Position numbers and translations under genes: made by a program. From Chloroherpeton thalassium ATCC 35110 (GTDB lineage Bacteria > Bacteroidota > Chlorobiia > Chlorobiales > Chloroherpetonaceae): a stretch of 64,000 bases of DNA. The stretch covers positions 1,904,001 to 1,968,000 of the forward strand of contig NC_011026.1 of the NCBI RefSeq assembly GCF_000020525.1, written 5' to 3'. This document shows, in pieces, positions 15,284-28,026 of this stretch (position 1 is the first letter of the stretch; the number at the start of each line of letters is the position of its first letter). A model generated the notes under the pieces. The model saw only the letters and a list, made by a program, of their open reading frames with translations. It did not search any database and had not been told where the DNA came from.

Positions 15284-15312
15284 AAAAAAAGCGCCACAAC
15301 TTGGCGCTTTTT
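15284..15312 (-). terminator. Terminator of the ilv-leu-cimA operon
   Basis: AAAAAGCGCCA (15286-15296) pairs with TGGCGCTTTTT (15302-15312). On the minus strand it lies 22 bases past the cimA stop and ends in seven T's. The same stem sequence appears in the terminator at 51225-51261. Confidence 0.93.
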
Positions 15313-15333
15313 CAGAATCTTTCAAAACTTTCC

Positions 15334-16941
15334 TCAAACGGTCATTTCGTTGCCTTGATGCAGCTTGAAGAGTTTGTAATTCACGCTGTCGCTTAAGGCT
15401 TGCCAACTGGCTTCGATGATGTTGGTGGAAACGCCGACGGTCGACCAAGTCGCGTGGCCATCGCTGGTTTCAATCAAGACGCGCACTTTGGCCGAAGTGC
15501 CTTGCTTTTCGTCCAACACGCGGACTTTGTAGTCAATCAGCTGAATATCTGCAATTTCAGGGTAAAAGCGCGTCAAGGCTTTTCGAAGCGAATTGTCCAG
15601 TGCATTCACCGGGCCGTCGCCTTCGGCAGCTGTGTGCTCAATTTCACCACCTACTTCGATTTTGAGCATGACATGTGCTGCATGATGGCCGTGCTTGTTA
15701 TACTCGGTATGCACACGTGAATCCAGCACGCTGAAATAGGGCTTGAATTCGCCGAGTTCTGCGCGCAAGATCAGTTCAAATGATGCTTCCGCGCCTTCAA
15801 ATTGATAGCCTTCATACTCGAGCTTTTTAATGTGATCGACCAATTTTTTCGCCAGTTCCTTGTTGCTCTCCAAATCGACGCCAAGCTCAGCCGCTTTGTA
15901 GCGAATGTTGCTTTGTCCGGCCAAGTCGGAAACCAACACGCGCTGCTTGTTGCCGACGACCGTTGGGTCGATATGCTCATACATCAAGCTGTCTTTCAAA
16001 ACCGCGCTAACATGAATGCCGCCTTTGTGCGCGAACGCCGATTTTCCCACAAATGGCGAGCGTGTATTCGAGGGCAAATTTAAAATTTCATTCACGAAGT
16101 TCGAGAGCGCCGTAAGCTTTTCAAGGTGAAGCGCTTCTTGCATTGGCTCGCGTTTGAGTTTCAAAATCAAATTTGGGATGATGCTTGCCAAATTGGCGTT
16201 GCCGCAGCGTTCGCCGAGGCCGTTCATCGTGCCTTGCACATGTGTGGCGCCGGCGCGAACCGCCGCAATGGAATTTGCAACAGCCAGTTCGCCGTCGTTA
16301 TGCGCATGGATGCCAACCGGCACGGAAACCGTACTCAGCACATCCTTCATAATTTCCGAAACTTCATGCGGCAACGAGCCCCCGTTTGTGTCGCATAGCG
16401 CAATAATATCCGCTCCGCCGCGCTCGGCAGCCAGAATCATTTTTTTTGCAAAATCAGCGTCGGCTTTGTAGCCGTCAAAAAAATGCTCGGCGTCAAAAAT
16501 GACCTTTCTCCCATGCGATTTCAGATATTGAACCGATTTGAAAATCAGTTCCTCGTTTTCCGCATCGGTTAGTCCGAGACTTTTTTCGGAATGAAAACGC
16601 CATGTTTTGCCAAAAATAGTAATGACCGGCGTTTCGGCACGAAGCAGCCCGTTTAAATTTGCGTCGGATTCAATCTTGTTGGGAAAGCGAGCCGTTGAAC
16701 CAAACGCGCAAAGCTGCGCATGTTTGAAGTCGATGGATTTGGCCAAGTTGAAAAATTCTTCATCACGCGGGTTGCTGCTCGGCCAACCGCCTTCAATGTA
16801 ATCCATGCCGAATTCGTCTAAGCGCTGGGCGATGAACAACTTATCCTGAACGGATAAGCTGACGCCTTCGCCCTGCGTGCCATCTCTGAGCGTCGTATCA
16901 AAAAATTCAATGCGTTGATGCGTATTCATGATGTGACTCAT
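15334..16941 (-). CDS. cimA: (R)-citramalate synthase
   Basis: Condenses pyruvate with acetyl-CoA to (R)-citramalate, the first step of the threonine-independent route to 2-oxobutyrate and isoleucine. 535 residues with the DRE-TIM catalytic barrel first: FFDTTLRDGTQGEGVSLS, GGWPSSNPRDEEFF and IHAHNDGELAVANSIAAVRA (metal-binding His residues). A C-terminal allosteric LeuA dimer domain lies at about 390-530. GGWPSSNP in place of the GFP of LeuA, and the overall length, mark the long CimA type. LeuC, LeuD and LeuB encoded just upstream can process citramalate. A second ATG lies at 16929. A 265-base repeat-filled gap separates it from leuD. Confidence 0.92.
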   Translation of the reverse strand: MSHIMNTHQRIEFFDTTLRDGTQGEGVSLSVQDKLFIAQRLDEFGMDYIEGGWPSSNPRDEEFFNLAKSIDFKHAQLCAFGSTARFPNKIESDANLNGLLRAETPVITIFGKTWRFHSEKSLGLTDAENEELIFKSVQYLKSHGRKVIFDAEHFFDGYKADADFAKKMILAAERGGADIIALCDTNGGSLPHEVSEIMKDVLSTVSVPVGIHAHNDGELAVANSIAAVRAGATHVQGTMNGLGERCGNANLASIIPNLILKLKREPMQEALHLEKLTALSNFVNEILNLPSNTRSPFVGKSAFAHKGGIHVSAVLKDSLMYEHIDPTVVGNKQRVLVSDLAGQSNIRYKAAELGVDLESNKELAKKLVDHIKKLEYEGYQFEGAEASFELILRAELGEFKPYFSVLDSRVHTEYNKHGHHAAHVMLKIEVGGEIEHTAAEGDGPVNALDNSLRKALTRFYPEIADIQLIDYKVRVLDEKQGTSAKVRVLIETSDGHATWSTVGVSTNIIEASWQALSDSVNYKLFKLHQGNEMTV

Positions 16942-17029
16942 GCCGTAATTTTGTTTTGTGCGTATCAGCCTGAGCGGGTAATTTTTCCGAAGCTGAAAAA
17001 GATAAATTGTTGAATGACAAATGGCAACT

Positions 17030-17111
17030 TGTCATGCTGAGCTTTCCTCTGGCGAAGCATCCAATTCGTCAGGTCAAGTTGGATGCTCGGCGAAGAAGCC
17101 TCAGAATGACA
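17030..17111. repeat. MITE-like palindromic repeat between leuD and cimA
   Basis: The 82-base unit has terminal inverted repeats TGTCATGCTGAG and CTCAGAATGACA and an inner palindrome GCATCCAA (17057-17064)/TTGGATGC (17079-17086). No open frame. Confidence 0.75.
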
Positions 17112-17123
17112 ATGATTCTTTTT

Positions 17124-17191
17124 TGTCATTGGCAACGGAGACGAAAACTACTTTTTCAAAAAGTTGCATTTCGTCTCCGCTCAATGCGACA
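17124..17191. repeat. Second palindromic repeat between leuD and cimA
   Basis: Ends TGTCATTG and CAATGCGACA surround an inner 10-bp stem GGAGACGAAA (17137-17146)/TTTCGTCTCC (17169-17178). It starts 12 bases after the previous unit and shares the GGAGACGAA core with the copies at 15.1 and 20.9 kb. Confidence 0.75.
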
Positions 17192-17206
17192 ATGAAACTG
17201 CGATTT

Positions 17207-17767
17207 TTAAGAAAGCAAAGCATTTTTGCGGGCGTACTCAAAAATGCCGCCTGCTTCAACAATGCTCAGCACATCGCCCAACGGATTGAGCGCGTAAGTT
17301 TTGCCATCGGTGAGGTTCGTGAGTGTTTTTTCGGCCACGTTGATTTCTACCTCATCTCCGGTTTTAATTTTGTCGTTGATTTTTTCCGTTGCCTCGCACG
17401 GGACGACAAAGCCGCCGTCGACCGAGTTGCGGTAAAAAATCCGTGCGTACGATTCCGCAATAATGGCTTTCACACCAGCCACCTGCAACGCAAACGGTGC
17501 ATGTTCGCGCGAAGAACCGCAGCCGAAGTTCGAACCGCCGATGATGATGCTATATTCGGACTCGTAATTCTCACCGTTGATGAATGGAATGTTTCCGTCC
17601 GGCAAGCCGCCTTGAACCGGAGGCACGCCGGAAAGCGCATAGCGCCCGTAGTTTTTGAGTTCTTCAGGGTCGGTTAAGCTATAAACCAAATGCTCTGCGG
17701 GAATAATCTGGTCGGTGTCGATATTATTTCCCAACACATAAGCTTTCCCTTTGATAATATTTTCCAT
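17207..17767 (-). CDS. leuD: 3-isopropylmalate dehydratase, small subunit
   Basis: The swivel-domain subunit of isopropylmalate isomerase, which with LeuC interconverts 2- and 3-isopropylmalate and also serves the citramalate pathway. 186 residues. Landmarks: GNNIDTDQIIPAEHL at the N-terminus, GGSNFGCGSSREHAPFAL (substrate loop), and YARIFYRNSVDGG. The short archaeal/plant-like form is seen rather than the 200-residue enterobacterial one. It starts 35 bases after leuC on the minus strand in the nine-gene operon. Confidence 0.95.
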   Translation of the reverse strand: MENIIKGKAYVLGNNIDTDQIIPAEHLVYSLTDPEELKNYGRYALSGVPPVQGGLPDGNIPFINGENYESEYSIIIGGSNFGCGSSREHAPFALQVAGVKAIIAESYARIFYRNSVDGGFVVPCEATEKINDKIKTGDEVEINVAEKTLTNLTDGKTYALNPLGDVLSIVEAGGIFEYARKNALLS

Positions 17768-17802
17768 GTCTCCCTTACTATGGTTGAAAATTCGTTCAAA
17801 CT

Positions 17803-19098
17803 TTATACAAAATCTCTCGGGTCGGTAATCACGCCATTGACTGCAGATGCGGCAACGGTCAAGGGTGATGCCAAATAGACTTCGGACTTTTTGCTGCCCA
17901 TTCTGCCCGGGAAGTTGCGATTGGTGGTCGAGATGACTGTGTCGCCGTCGGAGCTTCTGCCGACTGTGTCAGCAGGGCCGCCCAAGCAAGCCGCGCAAGA
18001 CGATTCGGCGATGATGCAACCGGCTTTTTCGAAGATTTCCATGTAGGTCATGCCGTCGATGGTTTTCTCCGTAAGTTGCTTGGCAACTAAAGTGCTGCCT
18101 GGCACAACGAAGGTCGGCACTTTCACGGTTTGGCCGTGAAGCACTTTCGCGGCAAATTCAAAGTCGGTGAGTTTTCCGCCAGTGCAAGAACCCAAGTAGC
18201 ACTTGGTGAGTTTCGTGCCAGCCACGTTGCGCACCGTATCGCGGTTGTCCGGGCTGTGCGGTTTGGCGACGACTGGCTCAAGCTCTTCCACATTGTAATG
18301 GTAGGTGCTGAAATATTTCGCATCAGGGTCGCTGTGGAAAATTTCATACGGCGCGGAAGTGCGAGCTTTGACAAATGCCTCCGTGATTTCGTCCGCTGCG
18401 ATAATGCCGCTCATGCCGCCGGCTTCGATGGCCATGTTGGTCAGCGTCATGCGCTCGTCAATTGGCAAGGAATGAATGGCTTCGCCGGCGAATTCCATCG
18501 CGCGATAGGTTGCGCCGTCGGTAGTGATGTCGCCCAAGATTTGCAAAATCAAATCTTTTGCGGTCAAATATTTCGGCATTTTGCCGTCAAAGACGAACTT
18601 CATGGATTCGGGGACTTTTTCCCAAATTTTGCCCGTTCCCAAAATGAAGGCCGCATCGGTATTTCCGACGCCGGTCGAAAACATACCGAACGCGCCAGAT
18701 GTGCAAGTATGCGAGTCCGTGCCGAACAGCACCGTACCCGGCACATTGTAACCTTCTTCGGCAAGCGCGATGTGGCAAACCCCTTTGTAACGTGGCGAGC
18801 CGACATCGTAGTAGTTCGGTAAATCGTAGTCTTTCGCGAACTTACGAAGAATATCTATGTTTCGATTGGCGTGTGTATTTTCCGTAAAGATGTAGTGGTC
18901 GGGCAAAATCACAAGGCGATCTTTATCCCAAACTTTTGCTTGCTCGCCGAACTCGCGTTCCCAAATGCCGATGGTTGGTGGTCCGCAAACATCGTGCGTC
19001 ATTAAAACATCCACATTCAGCCACACACTCTCGCCGGGATCAACCGTATTGCGACGGGCGGACTTTGCCAAAATCTTTTGTGTGATCGTCTGTCCCAT
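17803..19098 (-). CDS. leuC: 3-isopropylmalate dehydratase, large subunit
   Basis: Aconitase-family subunit carrying a [4Fe-4S] cluster for the second step of leucine synthesis, and for the equivalent step from citramalate. 431 residues, the archaeal/HacA-like length of about 420-430. Cluster ligands are visible as the Cys in YLGSCTGGKL and the pair in SSCAACLGGP. Other landmarks are DHYIFTENTHANR, GTDSHTCTSGAFG and the C-terminal NRNFPGRMGSK. Located 10 bases after leuA and 35 bases before leuD, in the order expected for the complex. Confidence 0.96.
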   Translation of the reverse strand: MGQTITQKILAKSARRNTVDPGESVWLNVDVLMTHDVCGPPTIGIWEREFGEQAKVWDKDRLVILPDHYIFTENTHANRNIDILRKFAKDYDLPNYYDVGSPRYKGVCHIALAEEGYNVPGTVLFGTDSHTCTSGAFGMFSTGVGNTDAAFILGTGKIWEKVPESMKFVFDGKMPKYLTAKDLILQILGDITTDGATYRAMEFAGEAIHSLPIDERMTLTNMAIEAGGMSGIIAADEITEAFVKARTSAPYEIFHSDPDAKYFSTYHYNVEELEPVVAKPHSPDNRDTVRNVAGTKLTKCYLGSCTGGKLTDFEFAAKVLHGQTVKVPTFVVPGSTLVAKQLTEKTIDGMTYMEIFEKAGCIIAESSCAACLGGPADTVGRSSDGDTVISTTNRNFPGRMGSKKSEVYLASPLTVAASAVNGVITDPRDFV

Positions 19099-19108
19099 TT
19101 TACTGCTG

Positions 19109-20674
19109 TTATACTGTTGCTAATTCCTGTTTATCTTGAGAATAATTTTGTTGAAAACTGATGGCCTGCAAATAAGCCTTCGCGCTGGCTTCGATAATGT
19201 CGGTGGAAACGCCACGACCAGAAAAATGTCGCCCGTTATCCACAATGCGCACAATCGCTTCGCCCATCGCTTGCCGACCGGAAGTCACCGAGCGCACGCT
19301 ATACGAGCTAAGGCACGGTTTCATATCTAAAGCGCGTTCGATGGCCTTGAAACTTGCATCCACGGGGCCGTCGCCAGTCGACGATTCCTGAACGCGTTCC
19401 TCCTGCATCCGAATAATGACGGTTGCCGTTGGAATTGCGTTCGTTCCGCTGGACACATGCAAATATTCAAGCTGATAAGCTTGGTCGGTGGATTGCAATT
19501 CGTCGCCCATCAAAGTGCGCAAGTCGTCGTCGTAAATCTCTTTCTTTTTATCGGCCAAATCCAGAAACTTTTGATAGACGGTTTGCAATTCCTCTTCGGA
19601 AAATTTGTAGCCGAGTTCGAACAACCGCGCCTTCAACCCGTGTCTGCCGGAGTGGCGTCCCAAGACGATTTTCGTTTGCGGCACGCCCACCGATTCCGGC
19701 GTCATCACCTCGTAGGTTTGGCGATTTTTCAAGACGCCGTCTTGGTGAATGCCCGATTCGTGCGCAAACGCATTGTCGCCGACAACAGCTTTATTCGGCT
19801 GCACAATCAATCCCGTATAAGCCGAAACCATCCGGCTGGTGTTGTAAATTTCGCGGGTGTTGATGTTTGTATAATAATTATGCAAATCGGAGCGCACTTT
19901 GAGCGCCATAACGATTTCTTCCATCGACGCATTTCCGGCTCGCTCGCCGATGCCGTTTATCGTGCATTCAACCTGGCGCGCGCCGTTCTCAATTGCGCTA
20001 AGCGTATTGGCGACGCCCAACCCCAAATCGTTGTGGCAATGAATGCTGATAACGGCTTGCTCAATATTTTTGACGCGCCGTTTCAACTCGGCAATTTTTT
20101 GCCCGAACTCGGACGGGAACGTGTAGCCAGTCGTATCGGGAATATTCACGGTCGTTGCACCCGCGCCGATAGCCGCCTCGACGACGTCGGCAAGGTAGCC
20201 GATGTCAGTTCTGCCCGCATCTTCGGCGGAAAATTCCACATCGTCGACAAGCGTTTTTGCATAGGTCACCGCATCGATGGTCATTTTAATAACCATTTGG
20301 CGTTTTTCTTCGAGCGACTTTCCATAGCGGACATCCCCGAATTTTCCGAGAATGTGAATATCGGAGGTGCTTGAAAAGGTATGAATTCTCGGCTTCTTGG
20401 CTTCTTTGAGCGCGTCGTAGGCCGCTTTGATGTCGGCTTCTTTGGCGCGAGCCAGCCCCGCAACCGAAACGCCAGACTCAGCAGCAATGCGCTGAACCGC
20501 CTCGAATTGAAGCGGCGATGAGATCGGAAAACCGGCTTCAATGACATCGACATTTAGCTTTTCAAGCTGCCGTGCAATTTCAACCTTTTCCTGAATGCTC
20601 AAAGACGCACCTGGCGATTGCTCACCGTCTCGCAACGTCGTGTCAAATATGATAATTCGTTCTTTATCACCCAT
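19109..20674 (-). CDS. leuA: 2-isopropylmalate synthase
   Basis: Condenses 2-ketoisovalerate with acetyl-CoA, the committed step to leucine. 521 residues: catalytic TIM barrel (FDTTLRDGEQSPGASLS, GFPISSP, SIHCHNDLGLGVAN with metal-binding His residues), linker, then the C-terminal regulatory domain (about 390-520, DGPVDASFKAIERAL) that normally binds leucine for feedback inhibition. The ATG at 20674 has a good AAGGAG ribosome site upstream. A 281-base gap holding a degenerate dispersed repeat separates it from leuB, so an internal promoter is possible. Confidence 0.97.
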   Translation of the reverse strand: MGDKERIIIFDTTLRDGEQSPGASLSIQEKVEIARQLEKLNVDVIEAGFPISSPLQFEAVQRIAAESGVSVAGLARAKEADIKAAYDALKEAKKPRIHTFSSTSDIHILGKFGDVRYGKSLEEKRQMVIKMTIDAVTYAKTLVDDVEFSAEDAGRTDIGYLADVVEAAIGAGATTVNIPDTTGYTFPSEFGQKIAELKRRVKNIEQAVISIHCHNDLGLGVANTLSAIENGARQVECTINGIGERAGNASMEEIVMALKVRSDLHNYYTNINTREIYNTSRMVSAYTGLIVQPNKAVVGDNAFAHESGIHQDGVLKNRQTYEVMTPESVGVPQTKIVLGRHSGRHGLKARLFELGYKFSEEELQTVYQKFLDLADKKKEIYDDDLRTLMGDELQSTDQAYQLEYLHVSSGTNAIPTATVIIRMQEERVQESSTGDGPVDASFKAIERALDMKPCLSSYSVRSVTSGRQAMGEAIVRIVDNGRHFSGRGVSTDIIEASAKAYLQAISFQQNYSQDKQELATV

Positions 20675-20834
20675 TGAAATAACTCCTTTTGTTTAGAGTG
20701 AAATGCCGCTCGAAAAAATGCTTTAATTTTGGTTGAATGAAAAAGATCAGTCTTGTGAAAAATGTTATCAGGCTAAGTCGGTAATTTTTCCACACTGAGA
20801 AAAAGTAAATCAGAAAATGGCAATGAAAATCCGT

Positions 20835-20942
20835 GCCATTCTGAGCCGTTAGGCGAAGAATCCACTTATTCGTCTTGCGCCCAGCATAACAGAACGCTGT
20901 CATTAGTAGCAGTGGAGACGAACCCCTCTATTCGTCCCCGCC
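20835..20942. repeat. Degenerate dispersed repeat between leuB and leuA
   Basis: Contains TGCCATTCTGAG...GGCGAAGAATCC and an imperfect stem GGAGACGAA (20914-20922)/TTCGTCCCC (20931-20939). These are the two cores of the repeats at 15.1 and 17.0-17.2 kb. No coding frame is convincing here. Confidence 0.6.
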
Positions 20943-20955
20943 CGAATCAAAAAAA

Positions 20956-22026
20956 CTACTTCACCGCATCCAACGAGGTGAGGATTTGCTCAGTCATCTC
21001 GGTGGTGCTAGCAAGTTTGCAGCCTTCGCTCTTAATGTCGCCGGTGCGATAGCCTTTTGAAAGCGTGTCCTCGATGGCGCTGTAAATCAGCTTGCCGGCT
21101 TCCGGCAAATCGAGCGTGTTTTCAAACATCATCGCAACGGAGGCGAGCGTAGCCAGCGGATTGGCTTTGTTTTGTCCCGCAATGTCCGGTGCGCTGCCGT
21201 GAATCGGTTCGTAAAGCGCGTACTTATCACCGAGACTTGCCGACGGAAGCATTCCTAAGCTGCCAGTAATCATGCCGGAAATGTCGCTGATGATGTCGCC
21301 AAACAAATTGCTGGTCACAATTACATCGAACTGCTTCGGATTTCTAACGACTTGCATCGCCGCGTTATCCACATACATGTCATTTAAAACGACATCTTGA
21401 TAATCCTTGTGAACTTCATGCACAATTTGTCGCCAGAACTGCGAAACCTCCAACACATTAGCCTTGTCAATACTGGTAACTTTTTTGCCGCGTTTGCGAG
21501 CCAATTCAAAGGCTTGGCGGGCAATGCGTTCCACCTCGTATTTTTCATAAACCATCGTGTTCCAGCCCTTTTCCTCGTCGTAGCCGCGTGGCTGGCCGAA
21601 GTAAATGCCGCCGGTCAGTTCGCGCACCACCACAAAGTCCGTGCCTTGGATGATGTCTTTCTTCAGGGAAGACGCATCGGCCAGCGCGTCAAAGACTTTC
21701 GCCGGACGAATGTTGGCATAAAGGCCAAGCTCTTTGCGGAGCTTCAAAAGAGCTGCTTCTGGCTTTTTATTGTGCGGCAAGTTTTCCCATTTCGGGCCGC
21801 CGACCGCGCCAAGCAAAACGGCGTCGGCATTTTTGCACGCCGCCAAAGTTTCTTCGGTGAGCATTTCGCCGTGCGCGTCGTAAGAACAGCCGCCGAACAA
21901 ATGCTCTTCTATGGAAATTTCCAGATCAAATTTTGGTGCAACTTTTTCAATCACTTGCACCGCAGACGCTACAACCTCTTGCCCGATGCCGTCGCCGGGC
22001 AACGAAACGATTTTTATGCTTCTCAT
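20956..22026 (-). CDS. leuB: 3-isopropylmalate dehydrogenase
   Basis: NAD-dependent oxidative decarboxylation of 3-isopropylmalate. In a CimA pathway the same enzyme oxidises 3-methylmalate. 356 residues. Visible: [50 protein letters not shown], the metal-binding [20 protein letters not shown] and the NAD site [18 protein letters not shown]. Its ATG overlaps the ilvC stop by four bases, indicating translational coupling. Confidence 0.97.
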
Positions 22027-23039
22027 ACTCCTGCGTCTGCTTTTGGATTTTTCTTAAATAACCAGCTCATCATGCCGCGCAATTTTTCGCCAACACCTTC
22101 AATTTTATGCTCGCGGTTGGATTTGCGAAGTGCTTCCATGCTTTTATAACCAGAGTTGCACTCGTCGATGAATTCTTTCGCAAATGTGCCGTCTTGAACT
22201 TCTTTCAGGACTTGGCGCATGTTTTGGCGAACTTCGTCGGTGATGATTCTCGGGCCGCGTGTCATGCCGCCGTACTCTGCGGTGTCGCTGACGGAATAGT
22301 TCATGCGCGAAAGACCGCCTTCGTAATACAAATCGACGATGAGCTTCAGCTCGTGCATACATTCGAAGTAAGCAAGCTCGGCTGGATAACCGCCTTCAAC
22401 AAGCGTGTCGAACCCGGCTTTGATAAGCTCAGCTGAGCCGCCGCAAAGCACGGCTTGCTCACCGAAAAGGTCGGTTTCGGTTTCGTCTTTAAAGTTCGTT
22501 TCGATAACACCCGCTTTTGTGCCGCCAAGACCTTTTGCCCAAGCAAGCGCAATGTCTTTAGCTTTTCCATCTACATTTTGATGAACGGCGATTAAGCAAG
22601 GAACACCGGCACCTTCAACAAAAGTTCTTCTGACAAGATGGCCTGGGCTCTTCGGCGCAATCATGATGACATTGACATTGGCAGGCGGAACAATTTGCTT
22701 GTAATGAATATTGAAACCATGTCCGAATGCCAGCGTGTCGCCAGGTTTTAGGTTGGGTGCAATGTCATTTTCATACACGGCTTTTTGCACTTGGTCAGGA
22801 ATGAGCACCATGATAATATCCGCCCATTTAACGGCTTCTGCTGTTTTTTCAACCATGAGGCCAGCCTTTTCAGCTTTTACCCATGAAGCGCTGTTTTCTT
22901 TCAAGCCAACGCAAACATTCATGCCACTATCTTTCAAGTTGAGCGCGTGGGCATGACCTTGACTCCCAAATCCTAAAACAGCGATTTTTTTGTCTGCAAG
23001 AAGTGCCAAATCGGCATCATTTTCATAATAAACTTTCAT
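22023..23039 (-). CDS. ilvC: Ketol-acid reductoisomerase
   Basis: NADPH- and magnesium-dependent isomeroreductase in valine, leucine and isoleucine synthesis. 338 residues, the short class I form. Landmarks: the Rossmann loop [60 protein letters not shown] with metal-binding acids, and the C-terminal knotted helical domain. It starts 22 bases after ilvN and overlaps leuB by four bases. Confidence 0.98.
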
Positions 23040-23061
23040 TTGAGTCCGTAATTGATGGTTT

Positions 23062-23583
23062 TTAGATTGCTAAAACTTCGGATGACCCTTTTTTGTGTCG
23101 GTTCAGTTGCTCTCCGCGAGAAAGCGCGACAACACCAGAGCGAGCCATTTCCTTAATCCCAAAAGGTATTAATATATTAATTGCTGAATCAATTTTCTCA
23201 GGTGGCCCCACAATTTCCAGCGTGAATGTTTTTTGGGTAATGTCGACCACGTTGGCTTTGAAAATATCGCAAAGGCCAATGAGCTCCGAACGATTGCTTT
23301 TCTGATAAAAAACGGTGATCAAGGCAAGCTCGCGCTCGACCGTCAATGCGCCGGTTAAATCCAGCACTTTGATGGTATCGATCAGGCGATTGAGCTGCTT
23401 GACAATTTGTCCAAGAATTTGTTCATCACCTTCGGTGACAATGGTCATGCGCGAAATTTCCGGGTCCTCGGTTTCCCCAATTGAAATGCTTTCCAAATTG
23501 AAGCCTCTTGCGCTAAACATGGCTGCAACGCGGTTGAGCGCACCAAATTTATTTTCGACCAGAACAGAGATCGTATGTTTCAT
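23062..23583 (-). CDS. ilvN: Acetolactate synthase, small regulatory subunit
   Basis: Regulatory subunit that activates the IlvB catalytic subunit and gives valine feedback control. 173 residues: an N-terminal ACT domain ([32 protein letters not shown]) followed by the ALS_ss_C domain. It begins three bases after the ilvB stop. The name ilvH is used for the same gene in some genomes. Confidence 0.96.
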
Positions 23584-23586
23584 GGC

Positions 23587-25305
23587 TTAAACAAGCGTTT
23601 TTGGGTTAAGTCGTTTAATCATCATGTCCGAAATAGAAGCGCCTGCCGGCACCATCGGAAATACCATATCTTCTCGGGCAACCTTGAACTCCACAAAGAT
23701 GGGTCCTTCATTGTAAGCCAGTGCTTTGTCCAAAAGTTCGCTCACCTCATTTGGGTTGTCGGTTGAAAAAGCCGGAATGCCAAATGACGCCACCACTTTT
23801 ACATAGTCAGGATTGTTTTCCGAGAGATCTGTAAAGCTGTATTTTTTCTCATGGAAAAGCTCTTGCCACTGACGCACCATGCCCAAATAGCTATTGTTGA
23901 TCAAAAAGATTTTCAGTGGAATCTTATGATAAGCAGCTGTGACAAGCTCCTGAATGTTCATCATGAAACCGCCGTCGCCACTGATTGAAATAACCGGCTT
24001 GTCTTGAACGCCAAATGCCGCGCCGATCGCCGCCGGAAGTGAAAAGCCCATCGTTCCGAGTCCGGCGCTGCTGATTTGCAAGCGCGGGTTATTAAACTGA
24101 TAGTATTGTGCGATCCACATTTGGTGCTGGCCAACATCGGCAACCACAATTGCTTCGCCGCCCGTTTTCTCTGAAATTTGCTCAATTACGTATTCCGTTC
24201 TGAGTTTGCCATCTTCAGTTTCATAAACAAGCGGGCAATCTTCTCGCCATGCTTGAATGGTTTTCAGCCATTCTTCTGTGTCGGGCGATTCGGTCATTTC
24301 AACCGAAAGTTCGCTGAGAATGTGTTTTACATCGCCAACGATCGGCAAGTCAACCAAGACATTTTTATCGATAGCCGTTGGATCGATATCGACATGAATT
24401 TTGTACGCTTGCGTTGCAAAGGTCTCAGTTTTTCCGGTAACGCGATCGTCGAAACGAGCGCCAAGCGCAATGAGCACATCGCAGTTATTGACAGCTTGGT
24501 TTGCCCAGTATGTTCCGTGCATCCCCAGCATGCCAAGCGAAAGCTCGTCTTTGGCCGGAAGCGCACCCAAGCCTTGCAAGGTCATGGTCACTGGAATGCG
24601 GTGCGTTTTGGCAAAAAAGGTGAGTTCCTTCGCAGCTTCCGACATGATGATGCCACCGCCAACATAAAGCAACGGCTTCTTGGCATGTTTGATTTTGGCC
24701 GCTGCCTTTTTGATTTGCATCGTGTGGCCTTGAACGGTCGGTTTGTAGCCGCGAATTTCAACCTTTTCAGGATATTCGAACGTGCACTTGGCGTTCATCA
24801 CGTCTTTTGGCAAGTCGACCAAAACAGGACCCGGACGACCGGTTCTCGCCAAAAAGAAGGCTTTTCGAATTGTAGAAGCCAATTCGTTCACATCTTTCAC
24901 CAAGAAATTATACTTGGTAATCGGGCGCGTAATGCCCAAAATATCGGCTTCTTGGAACGCATCGTTTCCAATTAAATGCGTTGGAACTTGGCCAGTGAAA
25001 ATCACAATCGGAGAGGAATCCATATAAGCATTCGCAATTCCGGTGACGGTATTGGTTGCTCCTGGGCCGGAAGTCACAAGCACAACGCCCACTTTTCCGG
25101 TAGCTCTGGCATAGCCTTCTGCCATGTGTGTCGCCCCTTGTTCGTGGCGTACCAAAATGTGCTTAATGTCGTCAACGTCGTAGAGCTTTTCGTAGATTTT
25201 TAGCAAAGCTCCGCCGGGATAGCCGAAAATATATTCGACGCCTTCCCGTCTCAGACACTCAAAAAAGATTTCTGCCCCAATCAGAGTGTGCCCTTTTGAA
25301 GTCAT
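23587..25305 (-). CDS. ilvB: Acetolactate synthase, large catalytic subunit
   Basis: ThDP-dependent enzyme making 2-acetolactate from two pyruvates, or 2-aceto-2-hydroxybutyrate from pyruvate and 2-oxobutyrate. 572 residues with the three ThDP-enzyme domains. The catalytic Glu region is FGYPGGALLKIYE...VRHEQGATHMAEGYAR. FQEADILGITRPITKYN is the FAD/herbicide-site region. The ThDP-binding motif is GDGGFMMNIQEL...LINN. It lies 34 bases after ilvD and 3 bases before ilvN. Confidence 0.98.
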   Translation of the reverse strand: MTSKGHTLIGAEIFFECLRREGVEYIFGYPGGALLKIYEKLYDVDDIKHILVRHEQGATHMAEGYARATGKVGVVLVTSGPGATNTVTGIANAYMDSSPIVIFTGQVPTHLIGNDAFQEADILGITRPITKYNFLVKDVNELASTIRKAFFLARTGRPGPVLVDLPKDVMNAKCTFEYPEKVEIRGYKPTVQGHTMQIKKAAAKIKHAKKPLLYVGGGIIMSEAAKELTFFAKTHRIPVTMTLQGLGALPAKDELSLGMLGMHGTYWANQAVNNCDVLIALGARFDDRVTGKTETFATQAYKIHVDIDPTAIDKNVLVDLPIVGDVKHILSELSVEMTESPDTEEWLKTIQAWREDCPLVYETEDGKLRTEYVIEQISEKTGGEAIVVADVGQHQMWIAQYYQFNNPRLQISSAGLGTMGFSLPAAIGAAFGVQDKPVISISGDGGFMMNIQELVTAAYHKIPLKIFLINNSYLGMVRQWQELFHEKKYSFTDLSENNPDYVKVVASFGIPAFSTDNPNEVSELLDKALAYNEGPIFVEFKVAREDMVFPMVPAGASISDMMIKRLNPKTLV

Positions 25306-25339: not shown

Positions 25340-27022
25340 TCAATCGAAACTTTTTAAAACCGCACCGCTTCCCGCCGATGTTACCATCTGCGAATAGCGA
25401 GCCAAATAGCCGCGTTTAATTTTCGGCTCAAATGGCGGCAGGGCTTTGAGCCGAGCCTCAATTTCCTCGTCGCTTAAGTCGACCGCGATACGCTTGTTCG
25501 GAATATCAATCGTGATTTTATCGCCGTTTTGCAGCGCCGCAATCGGGCCTCGCTCGGCGGCTTCAGGTGAAACATGGCCGATACATGCGCCGCGTGTTCC
25601 GCCGGAAAAGCGTCCGTCGGTAATCAGCGCCACTTTATCGCCCAAGCCTTGCCCCATAATGGTGCTTGTTGGCGCAAGCATTTCCGGCATTCCGGGTCCG
25701 CCTTTCGGTCCTTCATAGCGAATGACGACCACTTCGCCCGCCTGCACATCACCTTTCAAAATCCCGCTGATGGCCTCGTCCTGCGATTCGTAAATTCTTG
25801 CCGGCCCCGTGTGTTGCATCATTTTCGGATCGACCGCGCCAGTTTTAACCACGCAGCCTTGCGGTGCCAAGTTGCCGAAAAGTACGGCAAGCCCGCCCGT
25901 CGCCGAATACGGGTCTTCAACCGAATGAATCACCGCTTTATCTTTAACTTCAGCATCGGCAATATTTTCACCCAGCGTTTTGCCGGTCACGGTCGGGCGC
26001 GACAAGTCAAGAACACCATCCAGCTTGGAAAGTTCCTTCAAGATGGCGGAAATGCCGCCCGCACGGTCAACATCTTCTATATGAACGTTTTTCGTCGCCG
26101 GACTGACTTTGCAAATGTACGGCGTTTTGGCCGCCAGCGTGTTGAGTTCGGCAAGGTCAAAATTGATACCGGCTTCGTTTGCGATGGCGAGCGTGTGCAA
26201 AATCGTGTTCGTGCTGCCGCCCATCGCAAGGTCAAGCGCAAAGGCGTTGAGGAACGATTCGCGCGAAAGCAAATCGCTCGGTTTAATGTCTTTTTCAACC
26301 AGCGTCATAATCTGTTTGGCAGCCGCTTCGGCAAGCGCTTCGCGCTTCGGATCGACGGCCAAAATCGTTCCGTTTCCGGGCAAGGCAAGCCCTAAGGCTT
26401 CGGCAAGGCAGTTCATGGAATTTGCCGTGAACATGCCGGAACAAGAGCCGCACGTCGGGCAGCCGTTATTTTCCAATTCTTTGAGCCGTGCGTCGTCAAT
26501 TTTCCCTGAGCTATATTCGCCGACGCCTTCAAACACAGAAATGAGGTCAACTTTTTCGCCGTCGGCCATGACGCCGACTTTCATCGGGCCACCGGAAATA
26601 AAAATGGTTGGAATATCAAGGCGAACGGCAGCCATCATCATGCCCGGCACGATTTTATCGCAATTCGGAATGCAAATCATCGCGTCGAGCCAATGCGCGC
26701 CAACGACAGTTTCGACCGCGTCGGCAATCAGCTCGCGGCTGGCCAGCGAATAGCGCATTCCGATATGTCCCATCGCGATGCCGTCATCGACGCCGATGGT
26801 ATTGAATTCAAACGGAATGCCGCCGGCCTTGCGAACCGCTTCTTTGATTCGCTTGGCAAAATCGTGCAAATGAACATGCCCAGGAATGATATCGATATAC
26901 GAGTTCGCGATACCGATAAATGGCTTTTGAAAATCTTCATCACTTTGAATCGCGCCGGTTGCTTTCAGCAAACTACGATGCGGCGCTTTGTCAAATCCCA
27001 ACTTAATTTTGTCTGATCTCAC
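25340..27022 (-). CDS. ilvD: Dihydroxy-acid dehydratase
   Basis: Iron-sulfur dehydratase forming 2-ketoisovalerate and 3-methyl-2-oxopentanoate. I place the start at GTG 27022 ([23 protein letters not shown]), with AGAGG seven bases upstream; this gives 560 residues, the family length. The frame stays open to an ATG at 27079, but that extension lies inside the attenuator terminator. Cluster and metal-site motifs are [30 protein letters not shown] and GRFSGGTRG. It is the first structural gene of the operon, directly controlled by the leader. Confidence 0.96.
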
Positions 27023-27047
27023 AGCAGCCTCTTTAAAATTATTTATT

Positions 27048-27097
27048 AAAAAAAACGTACCTACTTCGGGTTTCGTCATCCCCGAATCCTTTTACGT
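27048..27097 (-). terminator. Attenuator terminator upstream of ilvD
   Basis: Read on the minus strand: ACGTA (27093-27097) and TTCGGG (27081-27086) pair with CCCGAA (27065-27070) and TACGT (27055-27059), followed by eight T's (27048-27055). It lies between the leader peptide stop and the ilvD start, so it would end transcription before the structural genes. Confidence 0.85.
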
Positions 27098-27188
27098 GAT
27101 ATGAAGTAAAGTGGAATTTCCAAGAATTAGGGACGACCTACCGATTTATAGGCAAATAATAATGCCCACGAGCACGAGTGTAAGTCGT
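27048..27188 (-). promoter_or_regulatory. ilv-leu transcription attenuator (competing hairpins)
   Basis: On the minus strand, segment 1 ACGACTTAC (27180-27188, inside the Leu/Val codons) pairs with segment 2 GTAGGTCGT (27133-27141) over nine pairs including two G-T. Segment 2 can instead pair as GTCGTCCCT (27129-27137) with segment 3 GGGGATGAC (27075-27083), nine pairs including G-T, and this opens the terminator stem. A ribosome stalled on segment 1 for lack of Leu, Val or Ile tRNA would favour the 2:3 antiterminator. Pairings were found by eye. Confidence 0.8.
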
Positions 27189-27328
27189 ACCAGCGGAAGA
27201 TTTTCCCTCAGTGAAGAGTGGCGAGTGATTGATGATGAAACAACACTTTCTCTACTGGCAGCAGCGGCACAGCGAAAACCGATAACGCGGGTGTTGTTCA
27301 TTGTTAAACTTAGTGGATTTTGTTTCAC
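27146..27328 (-). CDS. Branched-chain amino acid leader peptide
   Basis: A short frame upstream of ilvD on the operon strand: 60 codons from GTG 27328, or 51 from ATG 27301. It ends in LPLVRLTLVLVGIIICL and a TAA at 27146-27148. Twelve of these last 17 codons are Leu (CTT, CTG, CTT, CTC, CTC, CTA), Val (GTA, GTG, GTG) or Ile (ATT x3), which covers exactly the three end products of the operon. This is the hallmark of ribosome-mediated attenuation as in ilvGMEDA and leuABCD leaders of enterobacteria. Competing hairpins and a T-tract terminator follow. Which start is used is uncertain; AAGG lies just before the GTG. Confidence 0.85.
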   Translation of the reverse strand: MKQNPLSLTMNNTRVIGFRCAAAASRESVVSSSITRHSSLRENLPLVRLTLVLVGIIICL

Positions 27329-27648: not shown

Positions 27649-28026
27649 ATGGCTTCAGCACATTTACATCGGCCAGCCGTGTTAGTGGTAGATGACGAAG
27701 AGGATTTAAGGCGGATTCTATCAAATATTTTAAGGAAGAAAGGGTTTGAAGTTTTTGATGCGGAAGATGGAAAAAAAGGCCTTGAGATTTTTGAAGCATT
27801 TCAACATAAAATCGGGTACATTTTGGCCGACATTAACATGCCTGAGTTGAATGGAAAAGAGCTTGCGGCAGAAATCCGGAAACTTGATGTCAGCGTAAAG
27901 ATTATCCTAATTTCAGGAGATTATTCGCTTGCTGAAGTTGATAATTTTTCAAAAGAGAAAGCCCTTCAGTTTATGGCAAAGCCGTTTAGAATCGATGAAC
28001 TTCTGAAAGCCATGGGGTTGCGTTAA
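27649..28026 (+). CDS. Single-domain response regulator
   Basis: A 125-residue stand-alone receiver domain. Acidic pocket VLVVDDEED, phospho-acceptor Asp in YILADINMPELNG, the Thr/Ser position in IILISGDYS, and Lys in MAKPFRID are all present, so it should be phosphorylatable. With no output domain it probably works by protein contact, like CheY or a phosphorelay Spo0F-type protein. No kinase lies beside it; the hybrid kinase at 4.4 kb and the kinase at 48.4 kb are the nearest. It converges with the DsrC/TusE-like gene through a shared terminator. Confidence 0.93.
   Translation: MASAHLHRPAVLVVDDEEDLRRILSNILRKKGFEVFDAEDGKKGLEIFEAFQHKIGYILADINMPELNGKELAAEIRKLDVSVKIILISGDYSLAEVDNFSKEKALQFMAKPFRIDELLKAMGLR

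Follow-up and report, generated by a model that had tools for sequence, protein, structure and literature searches.

The window analysed here, a 64,000-nucleotide stretch covering bases 1904001-1968000 of the single-contig Chloroherpeton thalassium genome, carries on its minus strand a branched-chain amino acid operon beginning with ilvD and preceded by a short open reading frame that ends in a run of Leu, Val and Ile codons. The question raised by this locus is whether the short frame and the RNA that follows it control the operon and, if so, in which way. The results described below indicate that this leader is very probably a ribosome-mediated transcription attenuator sensing charged branched-chain tRNAs.

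The leader ORF occupies positions 27146-27301 of the minus strand and encodes MNNTRVIGFRCAAAASRESVVSSSITRHSSLRENLPLVRLTLVLVGIIICL; translation may start at ATG 27301, giving 51 codons, or at GTG 27328, giving 60 codons. The tail of the peptide, LPLVRLTLVLVGIIICL (also written ...ENLPLVRLTLVLVGIIICL), is followed by the stop codon TAA at 27148-27146. The final 17 codons (27149-27199, minus strand) comprise 6 Leu, 3 Val and 3 Ile, with the rare codons GTA and CTA among them. This proportion of 12 in 17, already pointed out in the sequence-only reading of this DNA, was the highest among 1097 stop-terminated frames with a start codon in the window, and 12 such codons were reached by just 3 of 12,522 frames in shuffled windows; these statistics refer to the 64-kb window and not to the whole genome.

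Four complementary RNA strands were located on the minus strand. Strand 1 (27180-27188) lies within the V-R-L-T codons of the leader, strand 2 (27124-27141) starts some 5 nt past the leader stop codon, and strands 3 (27075-27089) and 4 (27065-27070) follow. In pairing 1:2, ACGACUUAC (27188-27180) binds GUAGGUCGU (27141-27133). In the antiterminator pairing 2:3, GUCGUCCCU (27137-27129) binds GGGGAUGAC (27083-27075); this helix, as it had been drawn before, is present but too short, its full length being 14 pairs (27137-27124 with 27089-27075, C27084 bulged). In pairing 3:4, UUCGGG (27086-27081) and CCCGAA (27070-27065) form the inner stem of an intrinsic terminator (27048-27097), the outer stem of which, ACGUA/UACGU (27097-27093 with 27059-27055), touches a tract of eight U's (27055-27048). 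The frame, the three pairings and the U tract were all found where the sequence-only reading had placed them. Because strand 2 is common to 1:2 and 2:3, and strand 3 to 2:3 and 3:4, neighbouring pairings are mutually exclusive.

The fold energies of these elements were compared with those of shuffled sequences. The z-scores were -3.5 for 1:2, -2.0 for 2:3 and -3.3 for the whole leader. The terminator hairpin alone (-13.7 kcal/mol) was unexceptional, with a z-score of -1.4 that lies within the shuffle range. It was also absent from the output of a generic terminator scan, the limit of which is exceeded by its 10-nt inner loop. Upstream of the leader ORF there is room for a promoter, as far as a divergent gene at 27649; promoter scans of this region found promoter-like sites to be no commoner than in shuffled sequences.

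Taken at its longest, the ilvD frame would begin at ATG 27079, inside the terminator loop. The IlvD proteins of relatives begin with MRSD..., equivalent to GTG 27022 in C. thalassium, and AAAGAGG is found upstream of this codon. According to this alignment the real start of ilvD (25340-27022, minus strand) is GTG 27022 and not ATG 27079, and therefore the terminator lies within the untranslated leader. Automatic annotation may have placed the start at ATG 27079 (window 27022-27079).

Assignment of the downstream genes by NCBIfam gave the order ilvD-ilvB-ilvN-ilvC-leuB-leuA-leuC-leuD-cimA, ilvB to cimA occupying 15334-25305 of the minus strand and cimA coding for citramalate synthase. No ilvA above the family cut-off was found in the genome, a search for threonine dehydratase having returned weak relatives below it; an operon with cimA and no ilvA, as proposed from the sequence alone, was thus confirmed. 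A hairpin with a 12-bp stem followed by a T run (15285-15313, minus strand) is the likely end of the operon. The same gene order recurs in the sister genus and in metagenome-assembled genomes (MAGs) of Ignavibacteria type and Caldithrix type, and the order in Marinimicrobia is similar; judged by these gene orders, an operon that closes with cimA is usual among these lineages.

Some side observations concern the spacing within the operon. The gap between leuD and cimA (window 16942-17206) is one copy of an intergenic repeat that is dispersed over the genome, where about 60 matches to it were counted, mostly of 74-89% identity, and a similar inverted sequence, GGGGACGAA/TTCGTCTCC, occurs in the gap between leuB and leuA (20675-20955). 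Since the leuD-cimA gap is only 27 nt long in the sister genus, it is by itself no sign of a break in the operon. In genome G028 about 3 kb (L160, 11852-14858) separates ilvB from ilvN, which are adjacent elsewhere.

In order to assess conservation, the upstream regions of ilvD were compared among the ilvD-bearing genomes of Chlorobiales. In about 72 species a leader ORF ends 108-130 nt upstream of ilvD, with its ATG mostly at codon 57 or 48 before the stop. The leader frame was open over 47 codons in all 72, against 28 and 7 for the other two frames, a comparison favoured by the fact that the frame was picked by its Leu/Ile/Val content. In the leader frame these residues account for 51% of the last 20 codons, against 7% and 19% in the other two frames, and the rare codon GTA makes up 57% of the Val codons of the leaders, against 10% in ilvD. 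Beyond the leader stop, strand 2 reads GCCGgUCCCAAGUCCA and strand 3 UGGCUUCGGGAaCGGC with almost no variation, and a U tract (at least 6 U in 8 nt) follows strands 2 and 3 in 92% of Chlorobiales, against 14% for a control stretch. Leader and non-coding DNA could not be told apart by codon-position bias over the last 45 codons; such a bias (45% third position) was confined to the part that precedes the regulatory run.

Three genomes (G012, G033 and G060) were without a leader. Three others (G024, G028 and G030), belonging to the large family of the order that we take to be Chlorobiaceae, encode peptides poor in Leu, Val and Ile and have neither the U tract nor a match to the covariance model described below, indicating that peptide and switch decay together. 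In all, six Chlorobiaceae (loci L003, L005 and L113; L018, L019 and L029) either no longer possess the leader or encode a Leu/Val/Ile-poor version that has no U tract; these natural losses are useful material for comparing regulation.

The pairings were then analysed by compensatory change. In an alignment of 33 sequences, two-sided changes were found at 13 of the 16 pairs of the 2:3 helix, amounting to 58 cells with two-sided changes against 24.9 +/- 5.8 in shuffled alignments (0 of 500 reached this value) and at most 26 in slid registers. A tree-aware G-test written for this analysis and applied to 82 sequences found 3 of the 16 named 2:3 pairs at E<0.05; the same test over all column pairs of the 82 sequences gave nothing significant. 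Within Chlorobiales alone no tree-aware covariation was significant either, because strands 2 and 3 hardly vary in this order, so that wider sampling was needed. A conserved leader peptide and a covarying 2:3 helix in relatives both bear out the earlier proposal of an amino acid attenuator.

Shuffling of codons is uninformative for 1:2, because the GGG-AUU codons that form strand 1 stay in place, and it was therefore replaced by swaps of strands between clades, which probe the pairings most directly. For 2:3 the energy was -21.0 kcal/mol with the own strand and -14.4 kcal/mol with a swapped one (p=1e-13); for 1:2 the values were -12.2 and -9.3 kcal/mol (p=8e-9 overall). A control window 60 nt upstream showed no difference (p=0.34). 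The direction of the effect was the same in every clade, although 1:2 was weak in Chlorobaculum. These p-values are too small, since species of one clade are not independent.

A covariance model, R1, was built in this analysis and used for genome searches; its E-values, like the pair counts above, lean on an alignment containing some of the same sequences. Of 98 Chlorobiales genomes, 74 contained a single R1 match each, which lay just upstream of ilvD in every case where that gene could be placed; the family that lacks ilvD had no match. A sample of 392 genomes of the phylum added the families f10, f33 and f46, and the leaders of 8 genomes from these phylum matches, inspected by eye, all showed a Leu/Val/Ile-rich peptide ending at the match. 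Three borderline hits, in G340, G350 and G227, with E from 5e-5 to 6e-3, had no leader peptide and were discarded. Rfam gave no match in the window and 12 relatives at gathering or relaxed thresholds; the amino-acid leader models (Leu, Thr, His and Trp leader) and the T-box model were unmatched, and this attenuator is thus covered by no Rfam family.

By analogy with the known E. coli systems, we infer the following mechanism. Transcription would begin ahead of the leader ORF, and behind the RNA polymerase a ribosome would translate the leader. When tRNA charged with Leu, Val or Ile is short, the ribosome would stall in the last 17 codons, over strand 1 or over the loop that separates it from strand 2, and block 1:2; strand 2 would then take strand 3, the terminator would not form and the operon would be read. 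When all three are plentiful, the ribosome would get as far as the stop codon, which is about 5 nt away from strand 2, and mask this strand, and after its release 1:2 would form. With strand 2 either masked or paired, 3:4 could form, and transcription would end in the U8 tract, ahead of ilvD.

The same leader and 2:3 switch could act on translation, 3:4 lowering the translation of ilvD or the stability of its mRNA rather than transcription. This finds an echo in distant relatives, where 3:4 hairpins without a U tract lie near the ilvD start (L184-L187 and L042) or strand 4 is able to mask AAGG, the ribosome-binding sequence (L190). In C. thalassium, however, strand 4 lies over 40 nt ahead of GTG 27022, clear of its AAAGAGG, the outer stem runs straight into U8, and a U-rich tract is kept in 92% of Chlorobiales, which makes translational attenuation unlikely here. 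Still less probable is a metabolite riboswitch or a T-box beside which the short ORF would be incidental. ppGpp or metabolite aptamers ahead of ilv genes are known elsewhere, and the region is indeed structured, as the z-score of the whole leader indicates; nevertheless, Rfam was unmatched at either threshold, only complementary strands and no conserved aptamer-like core were found, and the Leu/Val/Ile codons are conserved in frame. The least credible reading is a random hydrophobic frame beside random hairpins. The energy of the terminator alone would fit it, but it is refuted by conservation in about 72 species and beyond, by the strand swaps and by the single specific match per genome. Transcription attenuation is therefore retained as the explanation for C. 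thalassium.

The attenuator design recurs outside Chlorobiales: it is found in further families of the phylum, in MAGs of Caldithrix type and, with different sequences, in additional lineages, and it usually precedes the same operon. In f10, f33 and f46, which are probably Ignavibacteria, the leaders end in ...LLGIIIL...IIG before the stop, with GGUCAAUCCC and GGGAUUGACC as strands 2 and 3. Similar leaders were found in a Caldithrix-type MAG (L032), in the f20/f28 members L184-L187, probably Rhodothermia, and at L042, while L190, L188 and L045 show the same layout with a different sequence (e.g. CCAGAGGC...GCCUCUGG). The Marinimicrobia MAGs L034, L035 and L038 have Leu/Val/Ile-rich leaders with less certain structures. 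The leader was absent at ten more distant loci (L193-L202), probably of Bacteroidia.

The output of the switch seems to differ in some of these lineages. At L184-L187 and L042 the 3:4 hairpin, devoid of a U tract, lies 20-40 nt ahead of the ilvD start. L190 (G157) has kept the leader and the 2:3 layout and has no U tract either; a translational output is possible there, since strand 4 can cover the ribosome-binding sequence of ilvD. Two further observations were made in this group. At L233 (G362:C12:97125-97218) the same leader type precedes leuB and not ilvD. In Ignavibacteria-type leaders (L162-L169, L233-L239 and L032) a conserved TATATCTGAAG directly follows strand 4, 25-45 nt before ilvD; this may be the U-rich part of a terminator, a polymerase pause site or something else.

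The kind of switch described here is a long-known attenuator. E. coli ilvGMEDA, with its leader ilvL, is the textbook case of a leader covering Leu, Val and Ile, and the ilvL and leuL attenuators combine a peptide rich in the end products, a stop beside strand 2, alternating 1:2, 2:3 and 3:4 pairings and a terminator with a U tract. The C. thalassium leader resembles those of the enterobacterial ilvGMEDA and leu operons in all these features, so that the novelty earlier attached to a leader for all three amino acids was overstated; the same holds for cimA, given the gene order usual in neighbouring lineages. It differs from ilvL and leuL in that leaders of its type are longer (48-60 codons), in the operon ilvDBNC-leuBACD-cimA that follows, and in leaving the Rfam amino-acid leader models unmatched. 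Attenuators were reportedly predicted in Bacteroidetes/Chlorobi by Vitreschak et al. in 2004; these predictions concern the same mechanism and the same broad taxon and may already include a Chlorobium case, beside which the family-wide alignment and covariation come from the present analysis. What seems new is the breadth of the family, the conserved strand-1 codons and the lineages in which the terminator output has apparently been lost.

In Actinobacteria, attenuators or uORFs of ilvBNC also provide leader-peptide control of branched-chain synthesis operons (PMC1262725, PMC10272879, PMC11857589); there the operon is headed by ilvB, in another lineage, and the likeness drawn here concerns the leader-peptide control. 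The Veillonella ilvD motif, a structured element proposed as a weak riboswitch candidate, shares the position before ilvD and is set apart from the Chlorobiales leader by its distribution, being reported only from Veillonella (PMC8632094).

A possible account of the whole family, put forward tentatively, is that one ancient branched-chain attenuator of ilvDBNC-leuBACD-cimA was passed down within the FCB group, to Chlorobi and Caldithrix-type bacteria, probably also to Ignavibacteria and Rhodothermia, and perhaps to Marinimicrobia. The leader peptide and 2:3 would have been kept, with strand 1 written into conserved Leu-Gly-Ile or Arg-Ile-Gly codons, and in some branches the output would have moved from an intrinsic terminator to, for example, the hiding of the ribosome-binding site.

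Surveys based on Rfam reached the conclusion that gamma-proteobacteria may be the birthplace of amino-acid attenuators (PMC3766115), and according to one of them no leader-peptide system had been shown beyond Proteobacteria (PMC2965389). The clear conservation of an attenuator in Chlorobiales and their neighbours, where a model can find it, argues for an older or a repeated origin, and the family is a missing entry for Rfam. The finding predicts regulation of all branched-chain synthesis in these bacteria, including the citramalate route to isoleucine. The more interesting part is the breadth of the family together with the apparent change of output in some branches; these leaders form a natural series in which the evolution of a switch's output can be followed.
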